Source: Hymenopellis radicata
Lineage: Eukaryota > Basidiomycota > Agaricomycetes > Agaricales > Physalacriaceae
Direction of reading: 5' to 3'
Length of the DNA stretch: 64,000 nucleotides
Assembly (NCBI GenBank): GCA_015501595.1
Contig: JADNRX010000048.1
Span: 124,001 to 188,000, forward strand
Positions within the stretch are counted from its first letter, which is position 1; every line of letters starts with the position of its first letter. The position numbers were made by a program, and so were the translations under genes. Below the pieces are notes generated by a model, which made no database searches, was not told the origin of the DNA, and saw only the letters and a list, made by a program, of their open reading frames with translations. This document shows positions 23,758-38,264 of this stretch, piece by piece.

Positions 23758-24024
23758 ATGGCGACGACTACCAGTATCGTGCCTACTCCTCCTGCCCCTA
23801 TTGCCCCTACGCCTTTCAACTCCCCTGGCCGCGGGGCCGATCTCGTCATCATTACCTCCGAAGGCACCATCCTATACGCCGTAAAATCGTTCCTCATTTA
23901 CGCCTCCCCATTCTTCGCCAATCTTTTAGGCGATAGTTCCCCCGCCGAGACCTACGAGAATCTTCCGGTGTATAGGGCGTCGGAAGACTGCCGTACGATG
24001 TGCGCTGTGATGCGATTGTGCTAC

Positions 24025-24578
24025 TGTTATGGATCTCTGACTGTCGAAAGTAGTTCGGCACCGCTCGTAGCCTACTAAATTTCTCTATCCTTTCAGTTAC
24101 TCATTTTGAATCATCGGTAGGCCTGTGCTACCGCCTAATTAGTCGTTCTGACTCCTTTTGACTCGTTCTCTGACTCATGACCCCATTGTACCAGTATATA
24201 AATGTGCTTTCAGCACCTAGATGACCTTTACCTTTTACTTACCCATGATCACAACGTTACATATTACTTCGAATTACACTACTTTGTTCTAACACGCGAG
24301 ATAAGACTTCGCAAGGACATCAACCAACTAAGTGCACGCGAGATCAGACTTCGCGCCCACAAACTCTCTCACATTCTTGGCACACGCGCGATCAGACTGC
24401 GCGCTAAGATTGTTTCTCATTCGGACTACACTACACTACGTTCGTTACAGTCCTCACTTGTAACCGAACCCACAACCTCGCGTACGCACGCGCATCACCC
24501 AGCACAGGTGCACAGCCACGCTGCTCACTTGCACAGCTTTTCGGCAAGCTGCACCCGATTTTATACACTTTCGCAACA
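24025..24578 (+). repeat. 5' LTR, 554 bp
   Basis: It starts TGTTATGG and ends CGCAACA. A TATA element, TATATAA, lies at 24195-24201. Three spaced variants of ACGCGAGATMAGACTTCGC-like sequence occur at about 24294-24400. Confidence 0.93.
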
Positions 24579-24581
24579 CTG

Positions 24582-27500
24582 GTGGACACATTGTCTCCGT
24601 TACGAGTCGGGACGACTTTACCGGACGACAGACTTGCATTAGACCCGATGTCTAGGCAAGCACCTTACTACTCGATGGGGCAGCCCCCCAAATCTACATG
24701 CGTGACGGGCCGGACCCTCGCAGCATCAACTACATCAGTGAAGCCTTCTCAGTCAGGCGAGGAGGTTGCACCAACAACGACAGCATCTCCTGAACGTACG
24801 GCGCTTGCCGACGCTGCAGCTGCTCAGGAGAACACTACGACGGACGTTCCTGACACCTTGATTGTCTCTGAGATCGACACGGATCTGCAAGCTTCGGGCT
24901 CAGTAGCGATCGCGCCCGTCGATGACAGGTACATCAACAAGAGGGCCAGGAGGGGTAAAGGAAGGATTCAACCCGCGGATCTTGACGATGACTGGGGCCA
25001 TCTCCGAACAGGTGATCTGTTCGACGCGGAGATGTTTGGTACCAGGCTGGAGGAGGCATTTCCGCGTCCTCCCGGTGGCTGGGGTATTCCGACGCTCATG
25101 TACGAACAGATTCGCATGCCATCTTTGCTGCACTTCCAGCCTAAGACCGCAATTCATCGCTCGGTGGGGGAACAGTGGCCTCAAGATGAGAAGCGACGGA
25201 AGGAGGAGTGTCGAGAATGGTTAGACCGACGAACTACGGCCCTAGAACTATTGTCAGATGCGGATGAGGAAGGGATTGATTATTCGGTAATGAGTACCCT
25301 ATCCTTCGAACAAGCCTATACGACGTTTAATAAAGAAAGAGAACTCCTTATGAAAGTCGTCAATGAACCTATAGTGGTTCGAGAGGAAAGCGGTCCGATA
25401 CACGGGTATCGTCCTGAAGAAGGACACTACCGACGGTTGTTGCAAGCCCTGCAGCAACGGATCTACATAGCATCGACCTCTCTAAATCAATTCGGCAAGA
25501 AGTCGGTAACTTTACCAGCATGGGGACCCGAAAACAATATCGACTTATGGGTATTGAAACATGATTATGAAATATTCTGTATTGGACTCATCGCGCAAAC
25601 GGAGCATTTGCTAGCAAAATTGGATGAATATCACGATTGGAACGCTGGAGTTCCGAGACGCGGGTATTTAGACAGGGATGCTATTGAAATGCAAGAGAGA
25701 GCGGAGAGATACGCCGCCGGTACTTCAAGAGGAAGCGTACACTTATCACTTCAGGAGGCCAACAATCTATCGAACATCCACGTAGCTGATACTTCATCTA
25801 TCTCTGGTTTCTTGCATCAGAAGAAACTAGAACCTTTTTCAAATGGAAGTTCAGACTCACGACAGCTACGATTCGACACGCCTAAAGTTTTTGAAGCTGA
25901 TAGCGATTATCATTCCCCTTATGTGGTACAGGAACCCGTAAGTACAAGTTTCCGCCCAACAAGGTATACTACACGCGGAGGGACGATGACAGGTCGAGGC
26001 CCATTCGAAGTATCCGACAATCAGACATCAGCCACAATCAACCCGGGCACAACATCGACAGGTTCTTCATACCCGAAGACGGCGTCAGGAGTAGGAACTA
26101 GAGTCAGTCAGATGTCGCAAACCCCGTCATATGCTGAAGCAAGTCATCCGGCACCTGCCTTCAAGGAATTAAATACATTCGGAGATATGCATCAAAGCGT
26201 GTCATCGCGAAATCATGAATTCCAGGGTACTGCTACGCGTATAGCCGAGAACTCGAGCGCGGCGGCAACATATCCAAATTCCATACCCGTAATTCCTGCA
26301 AATTCATCAGCTCGACCCATCAATTCGGTTCCGAGGAGAACGACTTACCCGCAAGGAGAAGCCCCACCATACACCTCGGGCTATACACCACAGAATGGGC
26401 AAGGTTCATCTGTTAATCCTCAAGCCGGAAATAATAAATCCAACGGAAACGCTCCTCCTGGGGGTAATCACGGGCCAAACGGTGGCAATTCAGGTCACGG
26501 CGGCCCAGGTGGAGGCGGATTTAACGGTGGCCCTAGCGGCGGTGGTTCTGGCGGTGGTCCAGGCGGCAACGGTTTCAACGGCGGATCAGGGGGCAACGGT
26601 CCTCCTTACGGCGGCAGTCCATCTGGAGGAGGAGGCGGTGGTCCTCCCTACATAGGACCAGGACTTGGTTTGAGCGGGGACGACTCCAACAAAGCTACTG
26701 AGGCGCATTTCGACTTGAAGTTAAAGCTGAGCGATGTTGAAACCTGGGATGGGGACACTGACCAAATAATTCACTGGCTGAGGAAGATGGACGATCTGGC
26801 GAGCATGAGTACACGAATGCGACAACAGTTAGCACGAATAGTCCCAAAACGCCTCACCGGAGCAGCCAGCAGTTGGTATTGGTCTTTACCCTTCGAGCAT
26901 CGGCGTCGAATCGAAGTCGAATGGCCAGTGCTAAGGGAAGAAATCACTGGTTACTATATGACGAAGAAATGGTGGGAGAAGCTCCGTAAGCGAGCCAGCG
27001 ACGCTAGATTTAGAGAAACTGGACGTACTCGAGAAAGTCCTAGTGAATATTTCATCCGAAAGGCTGACTTGCTTGTGACGGCGTATAACTTTGACGATTC
27101 AGAAATGATCAGTGAAATCATGCAGGGTGCTCCAAGTCAATGGAACATGATCCTGACAACTCACCTATATCAGACAGTCGTCGAACTGCAACGCGCAATA
27201 CGCTTTCACGAGGAAGCACTCGTAGAATGCCTACCACAACGACCGCACTACAACGATCACTCTGAAAGAAACGTACGTGTTAATCTCGTCGGGGCGTCAG
27301 AGAAGCTCCCACCTCCAGCATTTCCAAAGGATGACTCGAACGTCACGACGAAGGGACTCACGCCTAAGGCCAAAGGTGCGCGCCCTTGCCGGCACTGTGG
27401 CAGTGCTATGCACTGGGATCGTGAATGCAAGTACGCTAAAAAGGCTTTCAGAACAGCTCGGACACGGTTAGCGCAAACAGATGACGACTTACGAGAAGCC

Positions 27501-29684
27501 ATGGACGCGTACGAAGACTTGTATTGCGACGTCCTCGACGAATTAGAAATCGAAGACTCTGACGACGAAACAGACTTGGATTTTGAGGATGGCCCTCGAG
27601 CGACTCGAGCTGACAACGAGGAGTCAGTGGAAAGAGTCTCGGGGGGTAGTAAGGGTGGAAACTTAGATCAAACAGACATTCCACCAAACTCCTCAGAATA
27701 TGCGTTGCCAGCACGCACTACGGCTTGCATGTCATTTTTCGAGAAACCAGCGCTCAACAGACGGTCGCGTCGACGCCTAGCAAAAGACATCGATCGCGTA
27801 AGTTATAAGGTCAAATCAAGCACACACGCTCACCCGAGTAGACCTTTGTTGGAGCTACAGAAAGTCATGGCCAGACCGTCAGGATGTACCTTCCTGGGTA
27901 GCAGAGTCGTCGAAACACGAGCAGGAGTGAATGGAATAGGGTTGGATCCTCTAAACGTTATCATTGACTCGGGATCAGATATTACGCTGATATCGGAGGA
28001 AGCCTGGAAAGGACTCTCATCACGTCCAAGACCACGAGCCGGACAACGAATCAAGATCATCGAAGTTACGGGAGACACTATGATACACGAGTTCGTCAAC
28101 ATAGACCTGTACTTTGAAGCAGATAAAGGACCCATACAAATGAATGTAGATGCTTACATCGTATCCAACATGACTTCGCCATTAGTCCTAGGTAATGATT
28201 TCGCTGATCAGTACTCTCTATCCACAATTCGAAGGGACGGCCGCACTTTTATTAATTTCGCGGATACAGGACGAGAATTAGAAGTACGGAATTCGCTAAA
28301 CGGGAGTAGGAAGTTAGTTAATGGACAGACGTTTTCAGTCAGGACGCACCTTCCCGAAACTCCGGGACTAACAAGAGTCCAAGCACATCGCAAAGCGCAA
28401 AAAGCAAAGAAACGAGAACGCGTACGAAAACAGAATCATGCGGTGAAAGCTGCGAGAAGAACCGTTATCAGTCCTGAAAGCTGCATCAAAGTACCAGTGA
28501 TCCTTCAATTCCCGGAAAGCTCAGATAGCACGCTGGTAGTTAAGTCAATACAGCAGGATAACAATGCTAGAACAATTTGGGGCTCACCTGATTCTTTGAT
28601 ATCCCGAGAGAATTCCTTTCTGCACGTCGCGAATTTCTCTGACCAACCGGTGGTCATCGCGGCCGGCCAAGTACTCGCTCATTCGTATAATCCAAGGAAT
28701 TGGTTGGACAAGCGCGCAGATGATGCTGGGACGCGTCAGAGACAAAAGCAATATGCTGGTCTAGTCAGACAGATGGTGGAACGAAGCAGAGTCGGCCCGA
28801 TCTCCGATCCGCGATCTTCTCTGACACGAAGTCAGACGGAGATCACTTCCAAAGCTCAACGAAACGCGACCGAGGCTGATGATCCATCAGCCTCTGAGCC
28901 CATCGAAGGAGGACCGAAAACCTCTGACACGCCGCCGGATCCTACATCTTCTCAGGAATTTTTATCTGCTGTCAACATTTCTCCTACACTGGACGAAGAG
29001 CAACGCGTTGCACTTACGAGGATTCTAGAAAAGAACAAGTTAGCCTTTGGACTCGATGGACGACTAGGGAACTACGACGCCCATGTCAAGATCCAACTCA
29101 AACCTAACGCGGAGCCAGTATCCTTACCACCCTTTCCGGTGTCACCAGCCAACCGCGAGGTAATGGACAAGCAGATGGATTCTTGGACCCAACTAGGAGT
29201 CATAGAACCATCAACCAGTCCTTGGGGCGCACCGACGTTTATCACTTATAGAGGGGGTAAGCCGCGTATGGTTATCGACTATCGAAAGCTAAATGCGATG
29301 GTAGTTCCAGACGAATTCCCATTACCCCGTCAGGACGACATAACTCAAGCTCTCACTGGAGCGCAGTGGTTAACTACTCTGGACGCACTGTCAGGGTTTA
29401 CGCAGTTAACCATGCATGAAGACTCAAGGGACATGTTGAGTTTCAGGTCTCATCGCGGACTGTGGCGTTTTGCACGCATGCCGTTTGGATATCGGAACGG
29501 ACCAAGCGTATTTCAAAGGGTTATGCAGAACATACTAGCACCATTTTTGTGGATCTTCGCTCTCGTCTATATCGATGACATCGTGATTTTCTCCCTTACG
29601 TTCAATGAACACTTAGAACACTTAGATCAGGTACTGAGTGCTATTGTGAAGTCAGGATTGACGCTTTCGCCGAAAAAAGTGTAA
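24582..29684 (+). CDS. gypsy Gag-protease-RT polyprotein (first part)
   Basis: This open frame of 1700 codons begins 4 bp after the LTR. Residues 1-620 are poorly conserved. A Gly-rich linker (about 620-690) is followed by the retrotransposon Gag domain (about 705-880: [33 protein letters not shown]), a CCHC knuckle [14 protein letters not shown] (about 935), an aspartic protease [13 protein letters not shown] (about 1126) and reverse transcriptase (about 1500-1700) with [11 protein letters not shown]. The frame stops at 29682 just after SPKK. One fewer A in the A6 run at about 29671-29676 would continue it into the next frame (29722). The break falls within RT, not at the Gag-Pol border, so it looks like damage and not programmed frameshifting. 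Confidence 0.9.
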
Positions 29685-29721
29685 CTTCGCATATCAGTCT
29701 CTTCTTTTACTTGGACAGAAA

Positions 29722-32700
29722 GTGTCGCGATTGGGAATGTCGACTCATAAGCAGAAGGTCGAAGCTATCCTTATGCTGGAAACGCCACGGAATGTCAAGG
29801 AGCTCCATACCTTCTTGGGCATGATGGTCTATTTTTCTGCATATGTACCGTTCTACGCTTGGATCGCTCAACCTTTGTTTCAACTCTTGCGAAAAGGAAC
29901 AGAGTGGAATTGGACTACTCTACATGATGAGGCCTTCGAACTGTGTAAACAAGTGTTGTCCAACGCTCCAGTTAGAGGATACGCTATTCCAGGCAAACCG
30001 TATCGTGTATACACGGATGCTTGTGACTATGGACTAGCTGGAATCCTACAACAAGTCCAATCAATCAAAATTCGCGATCTACAGGGCACGCGCATGCATG
30101 AGCGACTGCGAAAAGCATTTGACGCAGGTGAAGCCATACCTCAGCTGGTGGCCGTCATATCGAAGGAGTCGAACGATGTGCCGGAACCTGGTGAATGGGC
30201 AGAAAACTTTGAGGACACGGAAGTGTTTGTGGAGCGCGTAATCTGCTACTGGTCTCGAGTGCTCAAGTCAGCGGAACGAAATTACTCACCGACGGAGCGG
30301 GAAGCCTTAGCATTGAAGGAAGCCTTAATCAAGTTCCAACCATTCATCGAAGGAGGAACTATTTTGGCCATCACTGACCATGCGGCTCTAACATGGAGTA
30401 AGACATTTCAGAACGTGAATCGGAGACTCCTTACCTGGGGAACTGTATTCTCCGCCTTCCCAAATCTTCGCATAATCCATCGCGCAGGGCGTGTACACTC
30501 GAACGTCGATCCCATTTCCCGTCTTCGTCGAAGGTTACCGCCTGAATCTGGGCCTATATCGGACGATTCGCCTGCAGTAGATCTGACCAGACATAGCGAA
30601 GATGTTCTGAAAGCCATGTACGGAGAGTTGGGCGAAAGGTTTGAACACAAACTACTTACCGTGGCTACCAAATTTCTTCGGAGTCAAGCAGACGAAATTA
30701 ACGAAGTCAACGTGGGCCAGATGGACGGTGATGTAGACCACACGGAACCTATACAGTACAGCAAAACCTACAACGTACAAGTTAGTATGGTAGAAGAAGA
30801 AGTGGAACGCTGGAGAGATGCATACCGTAAGGACCCACATTTCGAGGACGTCATCCAGTCAATCCAGAGTCCATCATACCATTCCAATGCGAAATATCCG
30901 CAGTACTACTATGCAGAGAGCGGCCTAATCTTTTTTGAGGATGGCAACGGGAATAATCGACTCTGCGTGCCAAAATCGCTAAGACTCGAAGTGATGAGTC
31001 TAGTTCACAACTCACCTGCGGAAAGCGCACATGCCGGTTATCATCGAGGATACAATCGCCTAGCAGGAACGCACTATTGGCCAGGGATGTCTCGTGACCT
31101 AAAGCAATATGTGAGTACATGCGACATCTGCCAGAAGACGAAACCGCGCAGACACGCACCTGTCGGCCTCCTTCAGCCCATACCTATCCCAACCACGCCA
31201 TTTGAAGTGGTCAGCATGGACTTCATACCTGAATTACCGCTATCATCAGGAAAGTTTGACAATGTCCTAGTACTAGTTGACAAACTCACCAAGTTTGGGA
31301 TCTTCGTTCCGTGTTCCGTCCAAATTGACTCTAAGGAAACAGCGGAGATATTCGTTAAGGAGATCATATGCAAATACGGCATACCGAAACAAGTGATCAC
31401 GGACCGTGATACACGTTGGCGAAATTCATTCTGGAAGGAGGTGTGTGAGCTTATGGGCATGAAGAGAGCTTTGACAACTTCTCACCACCCACAAGCAGAT
31501 GGACAGACTGAGGTCATGAATCAAGGACTGGAGATCGCACTCCGTGCATACGTCGCGCCCGCTCGGAATGACTGGGATAGGTGGCTCGACCGATTAGCGT
31601 TGTCGTACAACACGACGCCACATTCAAGCACAGCGCGCTCACCTGCGTTTCTCCTATATGGATATCATCCTGTAACGGAGTCCGCCATCCTAAGCGATCC
31701 GGATTACATCCCTCGTTCAGTAGGCGACCTTGTTACAGCGGGGGGTATATCAGGTAAGATTAACGAAAAACACGAAGAAGACGCAGCGGTCGACATGGCA
31801 GAACAATTTGAGGCAGAACGGAATCAAGCCAAAGACGCGTTGACGTTAAGCCGCGCCTTTCAAGAAAAGTCATATAACAAGGGGCGATTACTCACCGAAT
31901 TCGAAGAAGGAGACTTCGTAGTCTTGAACCCTCATAGTCTTGAATTGCTGAAGAAAGAGGAGAAGGGCCGCGGAAGGAAGCTCCTCCATCAGTAAGTTGG
32001 GACCCGCATATGAAGCATAGCACGGAAAATGGCATGGCTGGATTTACGGCCATGCCATAGCCATGCTCACCGACATCGTTATGTCTGACATGCCCATATG
32101 CTGTTCTGGCATGGGAAGGTCAGACATGCTCACTGCTGAGAGATCAAAGCCAGACTTCACTTGAGCAACTTATTTGGCATCCCCGCGTTCATCGTTAGCC
32201 GCAACTCGCACTCGTACTCGTACTCGCGAAGATCAAGACGCGTAGCTGGTACGTCATACGCCCACGTGCATGTTGGACTTCCGCATTTTTCGAAGTCCGA
32301 CATTGCGCTCTTGCCATCTCCCATTATTGCCAACGACTGCAAACACGCCGACGACGACTCCAGCGACACCGCGGACGAAAGCAACAACGACCTTGCTACC
32401 AATGGCCACACGATTGCGAGGAATTTGGATGACTATCCATGGGATATGCGCAGCGATGCGAATCACGGCCAGGCGGATTACGTTGATCACCACTATGCTG
32501 ACGACAAAGACAACTTCTAGGCAACCAACTACGACTTTGACTAGGCATACAACAACGACTTGGACTAGGCCGACATCATCGTTTATGGGCATTAACATTC
32601 TGGTACGTCTTGTATTCTTCTAGTCGACTACGTTGACAATGACGACTAAGGCTTTCGATCTTGAATGCGAAATAGGAAGCCTCAACGATGCCCAAGAACG

Positions 32701-34107
32701 ACTCAGCAAGGACGGCGTCGACACTGCCATACAAGGATTGTCGACTATTCGGTGTGTTAGTGTTGTCCGATTTCACGGTTACTTTCTTACCTTCCTTTGG
32801 TTTCCTTCAAGTCGCTGCTCCTTGCGCTGTATGCTCCGCTGTCTCTTGTCCTGATGGACTTACCGTTGCGGCAGACGACTGCAAAAACGACTAGCACCGA
32901 CAGTCAGGCGCCGACGAAGACCGCTTGTAGACGTTTGTCGTTGTGACGCCATGACGTAGCTTGACCTTTAGTATAACCCGCGCACGGAGCTCTCAACAAT
33001 TGGACTACGGAGACGATGACGACGAGGAGCTGGGTGGACGACACCAACGAACACTAGGCGGACAACGACAATGACGAGGCGGATGACGAGGACGACTATG
33101 ACTAGGTGGACGAATACGACGGCGACGCCCACCTAGGACGACGACTATTGCGAACACACGGGCAGCGACAACGGTGACGACACCGACGAACATGAGACGC
33201 ATGCACAAGCGCATAGACGATGCCTATGGTAAGTACGCACATCAATGCTACTACAAACACTTGGCTGACACATCGAGCATCCAGACGGCAACTCCAGCGA
33301 GCACCAAGGCGCTCGCCTTAACAATGCGGTTTAACGCCTTCGAGAATGCGGTGAAGGTGGCGGGGGATGTTGGCAGTTGCCGGTGCGGTTATCAACGGCT
33401 GGCCGTTGCTGTAGGCATATACAGTAGCACATACCCATACACGAATACGTGTTCATTACATTGTGTATTCAATCCAAATGTTTATTTCTGCATGCAAAAT
33501 CTTTTGGAATACTAAGCATAACAATGGCATGCGGAGGCATGGCCAGCCCGCATGGTAGGAGCATGGCTACGGCATAACTGGATATGCAAGGCTGCATGGC
33601 AAACCTGGTGTACCTCATAATGATATGCTGATGTGTGGCTGCATAATCGACATAATCGGCATGTTGCCATGCTAGCCATGCAGATGCCAACTTACTGATG
33701 TCCCGAAATACGACGGTCCATTTCAGATAACACGGAAACTAAGCCCCGTCGCTTATCAGCTTCGCCTACCAACGGACAGTCGCCTGCACCCAGTGTTGAA
33801 TATAGCACATCTCGAGAAATATGAAGTCTCGCCAGCAGAACTCGGAACGCGCCCAGAGAAACATTTCGATCCTACGGACTTGGAAGATCTTGAGGAGGAA
33901 ACAGAGATCGAAAGGATAGTACAAGAAAAGATGTTCCGAAACAAAGGAAAGCATAAACGCGTAAAGAAGTATAAAATTCGTTGGAAAGGACAGGATCCAA
34001 GTCAGGACAGATGGAAGACAGCGAAAGAGTTGAAGAACGCACCTTACGTCCTAGAAGAATGGTTGCAGACGCGATCGAAAGAGAAAGAACAAGACGCGTC
34101 AGCGTGA
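29722..34107 (+). pseudogene. gypsy RNase H-integrase-chromodomain part, interrupted
   Basis: The pieces are 29722-31989 and, after the inserted DNA transposon, 33700-34107. It has the RT thumb (HTFLGMMVYFSAYVPFY), RNase H (YTDACDYGLAGIL, ITDHAALTW), the integrase zinc domain (HAGYHRGYNR ... CDICQKTK), the catalytic core (VVSMDFIPEL, ITDRDTRWRN, HPQADGQTEVMNQ), and YDGPFQITRKLSPVAY after the insertion. A C-terminal chromodomain follows: IERIVQEKMFRNK, YKIRWKG, DRWKTAKELKNA, VLEEW. Chromodomains direct integration to chromatin and define the chromovirus clade. Removing the insertion and one AT restores the frame exactly. Confidence 0.88.
31990..33697. mobile_element. 1.7-kb DNA transposon in gypsy pol, AT duplication
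   Basis: The ends are CAGTAAGTTGG and its complement; AT is duplicated (31988-31989, 33698-33699). Both subterminal regions are dense in GCATGGC/GCCATGC words. The centre (about 32,900-33,190) is a degenerate GAC-triplet tract. I find no transposase, so it is non-autonomous. The CAGT ends with a 2-bp duplication would fit a CACTA-like relative, but the superfamily is uncertain. Confidence 0.8.
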
Positions 34108-34453
34108 TGTCACAGTAACACATCATTTCGGATCAGCTAAATCGGGAACACAAGCGTTCACGCAGGCAAGCTATCTTCTTCGGCTCATTCCATACGACCA
34201 TTTCATTTCCACCACTTCATTTTCTCTTAACTATGTTCATAACGAATTGCCGGGAGGCATAATCAAGATTCTCACGTTTACCCAAAGGAGAAGTAATTCC
34301 GGAGGTTTTGCCTCCTCGAATCACGACTTCATTTCGCACTCACTTCCTGATTATTGTTCTTCCTCTCTGACTACGTCCATCATGACTTATCATGATTCCT
34401 GCAAGGCATGGCCTCGACTACGGAGCACGCGCTCGGAAGCGAGACGCAGAAGA

Positions 34454-34460
34454 TATAAAA
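34454..34460 (+). promoter_or_regulatory. TATA box of the retrotransposon accessory gene
   Basis: TATAAAA lies 36 bp before the ATG at 34490 and about 350 bp after the end of the chromodomain frame. It suggests that the extra gene is transcribed on its own and not only from the LTR. Confidence 0.55.
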
Positions 34461-34489
34461 ACCATACGGCGAAACAGAGAATCCTCACA

Positions 34490-36014
34490 ATGTCCAACTC
34501 AACTCCCACTAACAACTCTTACTCGCCTTTCACCAGGCTTATTCCTGTTCCTGTTCCACGTTCACATCCCCTTTATCGAATCCTACAACGCCTAACGACC
34601 AACGCTATCATACCTATTCTGGAAGAACTCGTCGCGCCCGGTGTCGCTGACCCCGTCGCGTCCGACATAGTCCAACTTCCTAATGGGAACTTCGGCCTTT
34701 CCAGGGATTCCATCGCGAGGACCGTCATCGCGTTCTTAGTCCTTCGTAAGTTGGGGTTCATCGTAGTTCCATCGACGCTAAATCCTCCGCAGGAGACCTT
34801 ATGTTCTATGGACTACAGAACGAATCGTCGCCTCCACTGTCCAACGATGCAATCGTCGATATCATGTTCGAAGTATCCGACGATAATGTGGTCGCGCGCA
34901 GAGTAAGTATTCTATACTACGCGAAGTCAATCCTCTTAACCTAGTTTTAGCAGGCCCATCGTTGTTTAACCTACATTCCCATGTTTCTCGATGTAGCGTG
35001 GCCGAACTATGCAGATGCGCGTGCGCACCTCAAGACGAACCACTTCTATCTTCGTCACATGATTGTGCTGTTGACCAACATTGTCCGCAGCACCGAGGAC
35101 GACGGTACGGCAGCGAGATGGAACTTTGGCGCCACGGAGGATTGGACCTCTTTCGATTTTCTATCTGCTGTTACTCCCGGGCTTATCCTCTTTCTTTCTG
35201 AAATGCAGAGGCTGTCCGGCGACACCGATCGCTTCTTGCGCTCGACTAGTCGGGAGAGTCCTGAGCCTGATCTCGACGCGATCTTCGAGGAATATATAGT
35301 TCATCAGGACGACTCTTCTGATCCTCCTCGGACGAGGGTCGATGTTTACATCTCGAACGCGCCCCGTCGTCCTACCATCCCCTTACCGGAAGTGCCGCCA
35401 AATTCCCCTACTCCGTCATCGACCAGTTCGGACAATTCATCTGTCTTTGTCAATAACTTCTCCCCGATCTCCGAGGTCGACCGACAGGACCCCATGTATA
35501 GGTGTTCGGGTGTGTATCTCTCGGACTCTAGTATTGCTTCGACCCCGTTGCTCGGGGCCCAGCAAGAAAGCGAAGAGGAAGAGTCCGCCAAGACGGAGTC
35601 TGACTCTGACAGCGTGTCTTTCAGCCACCTTGCTGACCGCACAGCGGGTTCGTCTTATGATTATCATTGTTTATCTTTACTAAAGTTCAGACAGGCATCG
35701 CGATAGAGGACTCCGACCGCGACGTCGAAATGGATTCCTTGAATCTTAGTCAATTCGACTTCCCGTTCCCTCCGGATTCATCGGCAATCTTTCAAGACGG
35801 AACGCCCTCTCACGAGGAGCTGTGCGATGGCATTATCGCGCCATCCATGGAGGTGCCAAACACTTACCACTACCAGACGCCAAACTCATCCACCGAAAGC
35901 TTTCAGGACCAACCGAGGGTAAACAGTTCCGAGGAGGATGTGGTTATCGCCATGAACCGCTTCCGACGGCGGGGTCGAGTTCCCAGGCGTCGTCCAAGGC
36001 ACCGTCGTACTTGA
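34490..36014 (+). CDS. unidentified four-exon gene inside the gypsy element
   Basis: The exons are 34490-34745, 34793-34902, 34954-35647 (or from 34951) and 35695-36014. Introns are 47, 51 and 47 nt with GTAAGT, GTAAGT and GTTCGT donors. The frame closes at 460 codons (459 residues). The N-terminal half is helical with no clear membrane segment (HPLYRILQRLTTNAIIPILE, DDNVVARR, FYLRHMIVLLTNIV). The middle is acidic and Ser/Pro-rich, and the C-terminus is strongly basic (NRFRRRGRVPRRRPRHRR), suggesting nucleic-acid binding or nuclear import. I recognise no family, and it does not look like an envelope protein. It lies between the chromodomain and the 3' LTR on the sense strand. Introns in a retrotransposon gene imply either a separate transcript or an unspliced genomic RNA. 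Confidence 0.6.
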
Positions 36015-36042
36015 GGTGAGTAACTTCAAGCACGGGGGGCTA

Positions 36043-36596
36043 TGTTATGGATCTCTGACTGTCGAAAGTAGTTCGGCACCGCTCGTAGCCTACTAAATTT
36101 CTCTATCCTTTCAGTTACTCATTTTGAATCATCGGTAGGCCTGTGCTACCGCCTAATTAGTCGTTCTGACTCCTTTTGACTCGTTCTCTGACTCATGACC
36201 CCATTGTACCAGTATATAAATGTGCTTTCAGCACCTAGATGACCTTTACCTTTTACTTACCCATGATCACAACGTTACATATTACTTCGAATTACACTAC
36301 TTTGTTCTAACACGCGAGATAAGACTTCGCAAGGACATCAACCAACTAAGTGCACGCGAGATCAGACTTCGCGCCCACAAACTCTCTCACATTCTTGGCA
36401 CACGCGCGATCAGACTGCGCGCTAAGATTGTTTCTCATTCGGACTACACTACACTACGTTCGTTACAGTCCTCACTTGTAACCGAACCCACAACCTCGCG
36501 TACGCACGCGCATCACCCAGCACAGGTGCACAGCCACGCTGCTCACTTGCACAGCTTTTCGGCAAGCTGCACCCGATTTTATACACTTTCGCAACA
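36043..36596 (+). repeat. 3' LTR, 554 bp
   Basis: The sequence is identical to the 5' LTR by reading, with the same length and the same TATATAA. It is preceded by a G6 tract (CACGGGGGGCTA) as polypurine primer site. Confidence 0.93.
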
Positions 36597-37589
36597 GCTA
36601 CCCAGCGACTATTGGGCCCGAGACGACAGCAGAGGTTTCCGTCGTGGATGCTCTGCAGAAGTACATGATGGAGGACGCTCAAGAGCGTTTGAAGGAGGTG
36701 ATTTGCTCTTCAGGGATGATGAAGACCGAGCCCATCAAGATATTCGCTATTGCGTGCCGCTGTCGCTGGGCAGATATTGCTCGCGCAGCTGCCAAGGAGA
36801 TTCTTCGTATCCCGCTTCCTAAATGGGAAAATTCAGCAGAACTGCGCGTCATTACTGGCATGGACTATCACTTTCTTCAGCAGTATTTCCTGGAATGTTC
36901 TCGAGCGAGTGTTCACGCCCTAAGCGGTTTTTTGGGATCCATTGATCCTGGTATCACAATAAACGCCGAGGACCGCTCATCCCTCACTATGACATGCTCG
37001 ACGTGTTCGAAAACTCATATTTGTTTGCACTACATAACAGGCGGTACACCGTTCGATGGATTCTATGGACATAAGTGGCTTGATGATTTTATTCTCCAGG
37101 CGCGCGGATGCCTCAGAGAATCTCCCGGAGCAGACATTACATCTGACGAGCTCATGGGTGTAGCTGTGCATGCCGCAGGAAGAGCCTGTAAGGAGTCTTC
37201 TGCTCAGGAGGTACGGAAGATCGTCCGCATTATCAACAATGGATTGCAAGCGGTCATTGAAAAGGTTTGTGGTACTGCCGTCCCTCGTATCGACTTACCT
37301 CAATCTATAGGTCGAACTGAAATTGGACTTCTGAGTCTTTCGGGGGGAACATTTCGTCTTTTAGTTCCGCTGTGTACGTCTACTATCGCCCATTTCATGC
37401 TTTGTTATTAACCTTCTTCGTCCTAGTATCAGTGCTATGTCTCGCATGAGTCTGTTACCGAGTGATATGTCTGTTAATATACGAGTGCTGACCGTGAATG
37501 GACTGTGAGTGCTTTTGGAAACGTACATGCTGTAAGAATGTAGAGTGGTTGTTGATCAATAGTCCTGACTCGGTGAGACCGGGTGAGTT

Positions 37590-38264
37590 GCCCGGCCCTA
37601 CAGCAGAGGCACGTGGCCGTGATCCTGCTCTGTCGACGAGCTGTTGGTGCGGAAGACAGTCCAAGCGTTGGAGTCGCGGCATTTGCGGCTCAGACACGAG
37701 CTCTACGATCCTCGCCCGCCTCCACAGTACCCGTATGTTCGTGCCACATCGGCATACACAGCGGTGGTCCAGCTATATGCGAGGTGTGGCCAGCTTCCGA
37801 CGGGCGATCGTTTAGCATCTCGTGGTTTGGCGGCACGAAGCCTGTGTCGGTATGGGTGTCGAGCAATCGACGACGAGCATCACATCTTCATCGACTGTCG
37901 CAGGTTCCATAAACTTCGCAAGGAAGCCACGGTGAGCGTATCAAGACTCACGGCGACGAGGATTGATGATACATTGGGTGCAGGTGTACAGGGCGACTTT
38001 GGTCCGCTACGAACGGCAGCCGAGCTGCTGTTCTCGCGCGATGGTTCAGTATGGCCGCTCGGGAGCTCAACATATTACCTGGGCTACCTGCCTCCGTTGG
38101 ACGCGCTCCTTTCGGCAGTTCGATTTGACACGGTCATCGCCCGGGAAAAGTTCTTGTCTGGTATAAGTAAGGGGTGGCACTATAGTGGGATAAGGCTGGC
38201 TTCAAGGATATTTGGATTGTATCAGAAAGAGAGGCGGGATGCAGAGATTAAACGGACGAGATAG
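37590..38264 (+). pseudogene. LINE (non-LTR retrotransposon) C-terminal relic
   Basis: The frame reads VRKTVQALESRHLRLRHELYD, then a zinc-binding pattern CRYGCRAIDDEHHIFIDCRRF and a helical tail. This CCHC-type end is typical of basidiomycete LINE reverse transcriptase proteins. No RT domain precedes it, so it is a 5'-truncated remnant, as LINE copies usually are. Confidence 0.6.

Follow-up and report, generated by a model that had tools for sequence, protein, structure and literature searches.

Because retrotransposons replicate by way of RNA, they are expected to lose introns. Additional open reading frames (ORFs) have been described in LTR retrotransposons (PMC7264820), and several systems come close to the one reported here. 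In the maize element Grande, gene23 lies in the 3′ internal region, has its own promoter and encodes a nuclear protein (PMC7264820; the original work is cited in PMC11963269). For the barley element Bagy2, splicing of transcripts in the manner of env is mentioned (PMC7264820). The ORF3s of bdelloid rotifer LTR elements are separate transcriptional units with spliced messages (PMC5408684). In foamy viruses, the regulatory or accessory genes tas and bet are under the control of an internal Pol II promoter close to the 3′ end, and bet is a spliced product (PMC3798896). An Ogre intron has been described in plant Ty3/gypsy elements (PMC6317226). Other fungal gypsy elements also carry an extra ORF, for which the relevant passages describe no introns, promoter or protein family.

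Here, we describe an accessory gene with three or four introns in a chromovirus lineage of the mushroom Hymenopellis radicata. With the additional ORFs of PMC7264820 it has position, orientation and presence in most copies in common. It differs from them in its mushroom host and chromovirus element, and in its introns and conserved TATA-like box; introns are not mentioned in the sections of that source on such ORFs. Like Grande gene23, it is an accessory gene in the 3′ internal region, here with a putative promoter of its own. Gene23 is antisense, whereas the H. radicata gene is in sense orientation, so the genomic RNA contains the introns of the latter as well. The described bdelloid ORF3 types (env, GDSL esterase, DEDDy exonuclease) find no Pfam match here, and the parts of PMC5408684 that treat ORF3s do not mention introns. 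The likeness to foamy viruses lies in the TATA-like box upstream of the accessory gene, a predicted promoter; we found no Pfam match to tas/bet-type proteins, and there is no env. As for Ogre-type partial splicing, losses of single introns in our family would imply that partly spliced templates arise. By analogy, the gene may work most like the own-promoter accessory genes, Grande gene23 and foamy virus tas/bet, although we claim no membership in either group. A literature search by titles and the starts of abstracts, which covered few subscription papers, found the gene described nowhere and no paper combining "Hymenopellis radicata" and "retrotransposon".

The host element and its accessory gene

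The window is the whole 64,000-nucleotide stretch analysed here (C829:124001-188000), taken from the 75.5-Mb assembly (1405 contigs) that we searched. It holds a copy of a Ty3/gypsy chromovirus at 24025-36596, recognized by its LTRs, target-site duplication, RT-RNaseH-integrase order and chromodomain. Its two LTRs, 554 bp each, show 0 differences; together with the GCTAC target-site duplication, this indicates a recent insertion. The features of the copy, in window coordinates, are as follows.

24020..24024, no strand: 5′ target-site duplication GCTAC
24025..24578, plus strand: 5′ LTR, 554 bp, identical to the 3′ LTR over 554 bp
24408..29684, plus strand: stop-to-stop frame with gag, the protease region and the first part of RT; its start lies within the 5′ LTR
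29662..31995, plus strand: rest of pol (RNase H, integrase), in a frame different from that of the preceding pol part
31987..33700, no strand: insertion nested in the element, with terminal inverted repeats of 36 nt (78%); it separates the C-terminus of integrase from the chromodomain part
33676..34107, plus strand: part with the integrase C-terminus and the chromodomain (Pfam SH3_Tf2-1, Chromo); the listed frame begins inside the nested insertion
34454..34460, plus strand: TATA box TATAAAA, starting 36 nt before the ATG
34490..34745, plus strand: exon 1, 256 nt
34746..34792, plus strand: intron 1, 47 nt, GTAAGT..CAG, phase 1
34793..34902, plus strand: exon 2, 110 nt
34903..34953, plus strand: intron 2, 51 nt, GTAAGT..CAG, phase 0
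34954..35647, plus strand: exon 3, 694 nt
35648..35694, plus strand: intron 3, 47 nt, GTTCGT..CAG, phase 1
35695..36014, plus strand: exon 4, with the conserved C-terminal motif (acidic, hydrophobic, FxRR) and the stop codon
36030..36042, plus strand: G-rich tract, probable polypurine tract, immediately 5′ of the 3′ LTR
36043..36596, plus strand: 3′ LTR, 554 bp
36597..36601, no strand: 3′ target-site duplication GCTAC

A Pfam scan of the element gave zinc-binding, RNase H, RT and chromodomain matches above cut-off and an integrase core match below it. Within the frame 24408..29684, the RVT_1 match has an E-value of 1e-25, the aspartyl protease matches fall below the curated cut-off and the zinc-knuckle match is not significant. 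Pol is broken twice in this copy, by a frame change in RT near 29.67 kb (about 29660-29684) and by the nested 1.7-kb insertion. That the frame change is common to all copies is ruled out: the two pol parts are in phase in 10/10 relatives covering the point, so the change is peculiar to the window copy. The left end of the nested insertion (31987-33700) has a consensus-like splice donor (GTAAGT). Elsewhere in the window, a frame at 37623-38264 that matches zf-RVT weakly (E 0.0013, short of the Pfam cut-off) is perhaps a LINE remnant.

The accessory gene lies on the sense strand between the chromodomain (the Pfam Chromo frame ends at 34107) and the 3′ LTR, which begins at 36043. A first-pass annotation of the locus had proposed a gene at this place with four exons and three introns whose phases close into 459 residues, and joining the exons over 34490-36014 indeed gives 459 codons plus a stop. 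All three introns are GT..AG, and the TATAAAA reported upstream of the ATG was reproduced at its position. The stop codon is separated from the 3′ LTR by 28 nt, which include the G-rich tract. Likewise, a run of at least five G and then an LTR-start-like TGTTATGGAT follow shortly 3′ of the stop in each of the 11 copies where the C-terminal motif could be located. With stop, G-run and TGTTATGGAT so close together, the accessory gene occupies the position of env.

The predicted window protein is acidic (66 acidic versus 40 Lys/Arg residues) and has a Ser/Pro-rich middle, as had been claimed for it. The claim of an Arg-rich tail holds for the window's own subgroup, where this trait is strongest; it does not extend with equal strength to other subgroups. 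The C-terminal acidic-hydrophobic-FxRR motif is kept in 7/7 copies with an open frame, and we know of no name for it.

A family of copies under purifying selection

A protein search of the genome gave at least 33 matches on 14 contigs, a lower bound given that the best candidates were scored. The accessory gene itself was found at no fewer than 13 loci, the window and 12 further copies, all in related elements. A match on C740 (E 0.54) was considered as a fourteenth copy and set aside as chance; it has no pol nearby. In 12/13 copies the gene follows pol and precedes the element's 3′ end, with a chromodomain match upstream. The thirteenth (L042) belongs to an element lacking pol, in which gag is present and no RT, integrase or chromodomain was detected. 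The spacer from chromodomain to ATG measures about 382-422 bp in 11 of the 12 copies having both. In L041 (3687-5240, orientation as fetched) it is about 1.55 kb as against about 0.4 kb, which suggests an insertion.

Searching the genome with the chromodomain gave 59 matches. All of those with at least 66% identity, namely 11 at 71-100% and two pieces on C1027 at 66-67%, sit at loci with the accessory gene, and the next best reach 48-53%. Family members lacking the gene, which the first-pass annotation had named as evidence against its proposal, thus did not appear at this level of identity.

The spliced frame is fully open in 7/13 copies (window, L034, L036, L038, L039, L043 and L044), with 459-481 residues. 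The other six are broken: L035, L037 and L041 by frame changes, L040 by running on into other sequence, L042 by truncation and L045 by an insertion. Synonymous sites are saturated in 16 of the 21 full-length pairs, which leaves five that are computable. Across all computable pairs, dN/dS of the spliced frame is 0.04-0.33, below 1 in every case, indicating purifying selection. The values are 0.13 for window-L034 and 0.18 for L038-L039; those for L034-L036 (0.21), L034-L038 (0.28) and L034-L044 (0.33) are rough, with synonymous divergence above 2. Over part of the length, L041-L043 gives about 0.06 (first 365 codons) and L042-L043 about 0.04 (first 245). The corresponding values for RNase H-integrase are 0.03 (window-L034), 0.11 (L038-L039) and 0.08 (L041-L043).

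The accessory protein diverges faster than RNase H-integrase. Its identity to the window protein is 64% in L034, 45% in L036, 30% in L038 and 29% in L043, compared with 88%, 84%, 80% and 82%, respectively, for RNase H-integrase. A lack of conservation of the splice-joined frame, also named by the first-pass annotation as evidence against its proposal, was not observed: the frame is conserved, as dN/dS indicates in each pair that could be computed. Its purifying selection and the 13 copies in related elements support the earlier suggestion of a new retrotransposon accessory factor.

Introns and their exact losses

Splice sites were chosen manually while the protein alignment was consulted, a procedure that favours conserved intron positions in the models. 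The models for the 13 copies contain 40 introns of 46-58 nt, all GT..AG. Other copies do carry the gene with its introns: intron 1 is present in 12/13 copies, intron 2 in 13/13 and intron 3 in 11/12, not counting L042, which ends before it. An extra, fourth intron lies in exon 3 of four copies from two subgroups (L041, L043, L044, L045). Phases agree as well: intron 1 is in phase 1 in 12/12 copies, intron 2 in phase 0 in 13/13 and the last intron in phase 1 in 8/11; in the deviating copies (L035, L037, L045) the frame is damaged ahead of that intron. Exon 1 measures 256 nt in 11 copies and 259 nt in L044, and exon 2 has a length of either 110 or 125 nt. The intron-3 acceptor of L040 is uncertain, since relatedness to the other copies breaks off directly after it.

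The donor is GTAAGT or GTGAGT at 9/12 intron-1 sites, 2/13 intron-2 sites and 0/11 intron-3 sites. Given this scarcity of consensus donors, introns 2 and 3 may splice weakly. A CTRAY-type branch site is found in only 13/40 introns and in 0/3 of those in the window copy, which speaks against splicing.

Two copies have each lost a single intron exactly. L037 retains introns 2 and 3 and lacks intron 1 precisely at the predicted joint; intron 1 is present in its sisters L038, L039 and L040 and in the other subgroups. L036 lacks intron 3 exactly and keeps introns 1 and 2, while its sister subgroup and others have intron 3. Exact losses of single introns are what a partly spliced RNA would leave behind once reverse-transcribed. 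By this comparison, splicing of element RNA at the predicted sites, followed by reverse transcription, does occur, and the two copies are the best evidence so far that the introns of this gene are spliced.

A distant homologue in a sister clade

In an integrase tree, the intron-bearing clade stands apart from the others with local support of 0.91. Elements of a sister clade, whose integrase is 65-71% identical to that of the window, have a homologue of the accessory gene in the same place that reads through these intron positions (C672, C1296, C102, C1038, C693, C1025); its frame is interrupted in C1038, C102 and C1025. One further sister-clade locus, C901, is cut by the end of its contig. Homology between the clades is weak and spans 178 columns, with a profile E-value of 2e-5 (a single comparison; probability 77%) and tblastn E-values of 0.001-0.003. 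In the database model of the sister-clade protein P0001, an intron is predicted at a different place, close to the N-terminus, where about 50 nt of open DNA are passed over. The introns of the accessory gene may have been gained in the intron-bearing clade or lost in the sister clade.

Near their C-terminus, sister-clade proteins have a Cys/His motif, CxHCHxxGCxxxxCP (P0001 residues 328-342), also present in L055; none of the seven open proteins of the intron-bearing clade shows it. An AlphaFold model of P0001, built with two alignment rows, has a pLDDT of 33 and is unusable, so the helical N-half claimed for the window protein found no confirmation.

More distant chromoviruses (L051-L053, integrase identity 44-45%) have different ORFs at the position of the accessory gene. 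Downstream of the chromodomain, L051 has an ORF of 672 residues and L054 one of 680; at the same place L052 has frames of 372 and 354 and L053 pieces of 164 and 181. All these ORFs were candidates for relatives of the accessory family; for that of L051, profile comparison showed no detectable relation, and a Pfam scan found no domain in it.

An internal promoter or a subgenomic message

An ATAAA[AG] box starts 31-35 nt before the ATG in 13/13 copies. Eight have the exact TATAAA, and the other five have ATAAAA without the leading T. In six representatives from five subgroups, the flanks of the box are 10-53% identical, whereas the six-base core is 83-100% identical. Conservation of the core within flanks near background argues for selection on the TATA box. 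By shuffling, the chance of such a box is 0.002-0.010 per representative, and the same kind of search in the sister clade, which lacks these introns, found the pattern in 0/5 stretches. The conserved box suggests that the accessory gene may have its own transcript. Transcription is expected to start 25-35 bp downstream of a TATA box. With the box so near the ATG, such a start leaves almost no leader, which counts against a promoter of its own.

Taken together, we think that this is probably a resident, lineage-specific accessory gene of the chromovirus lineage, expressed from its own short spliced mRNA and perhaps regulatory. Host RNA polymerase II would start a short RNA at the internal TATA box, which after splicing would encode an acidic protein of about 460-480 residues. 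The long RNA that starts from the LTR, the template of new DNA copies, would mostly be left unspliced, so that the introns survive; the weaker donor sites of introns 2 and 3 perhaps help to keep it so. In the weakest step of this scheme, the protein may influence how the element is transcribed or what becomes of its RNA, instead of serving as an envelope. We favour such a role, with modest confidence, by exclusion, as no domain was found, and because the gene appears to be an independent spliced expression unit.

It is also conceivable, though in our judgement doubtful, that the protein, made only from the internally started, spliced RNA, would keep the genomic RNA unspliced or export it, in a Rev-like switch between an early regulatory and a late copying phase. 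Copies that lose an intron would then lose this control, and selection would keep the introns.

A different reading is that the gene has no promoter of its own and is expressed in the style of env, from a spliced subgenomic RNA starting in the 5′ LTR, with the further introns lying inside the gene. The location at the env position would suit this, as would the spliced messages of bdelloid ORF3s (PMC5408684) and the env-manner splicing mentioned for Bagy2 (PMC7264820). We regard it as rather unlikely in view of the TATA-like box, found in every copy at -31 to -35 between flanks of near-background identity, and of the spacer of about 382-422 bp between chromodomain and ATG in 11/12 copies.

An envelope, a captured gene or a chance frame

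The same position, together with the fast divergence described above (29-64% identity to the window protein versus 80-88% in RNase H-integrase), might point to an envelope-like protein. In a simple hydropathy analysis of six proteins, the best 19-residue stretch scores 1.5-2.4. The customary threshold for a membrane helix is 1.6, and four of the six proteins exceed it, so a membrane helix is compatible with these values. The hydrophobic stretches overlap in L038, L043 and L044, which would fit an envelope; L034 and L036 have their peaks at other places, and the window protein stays below 1.6. The simple hydropathy analysis also showed no hydrophobic N-terminus, and an acidic protein with a Ser/Pro-rich middle does not recall an envelope. 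A Pfam scan of the accessory proteins found no family above cut-off, env domain included, two matches of single members being weak (E 0.052 and 0.28). We therefore hold an envelope-like protein to be improbable.

The first-pass annotation had also raised the possibility of a captured host gene. Several introns and a TATA box do resemble a host gene, as if one had recently been taken up as DNA along with its promoter and introns. Among the best candidates scored, however, no copy lies outside an element, all 13 being found within elements. The full spliced window protein, searched against about 5.8 billion proteins, gave no relative outside H. radicata. With a seven-row family alignment (best 7985 candidates scored), the only match was P0001, itself a row of the alignment; a sister-clade protein used as query matched only two H. 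radicata proteins. This search is word-based and needs shared 5-residue words, so remote relatives are missed. A PDB sequence search found nothing significant, with two chance-level matches (E 0.16 and 0.6). Moreover, the distant homologue in the sister clade implies that the acquisition is old. A recent host capture is thus very improbable, and the earlier proposal is not borne out in that form; an ancient capture from another genome is possible.

Finally, a chance open frame whose introns are an artefact of hand-splicing, an idea fed by the choice of splice sites with the alignment in view, can practically be dismissed given dN/dS below 1 in every computable pair, the repeated intron positions and the two copies exactly lacking one intron. 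These rival readings are not all mutually exclusive.

Implications

Additional ORFs of LTR retrotransposons are known; what is unusual here is that a sense gene with several introns and a conserved TATA-like box has been kept across a diverged lineage that copies through RNA. The gene adds a protein family without a relative outside H. radicata in the searches made. Three or four introns have been kept in one gene by this diverged lineage, and the two exact-loss copies serve as internal controls. H. radicata is a mushroom that can be grown. With the kept introns and these controls at hand, both the survival and the purpose of introns in an RNA-copied element are directly testable.
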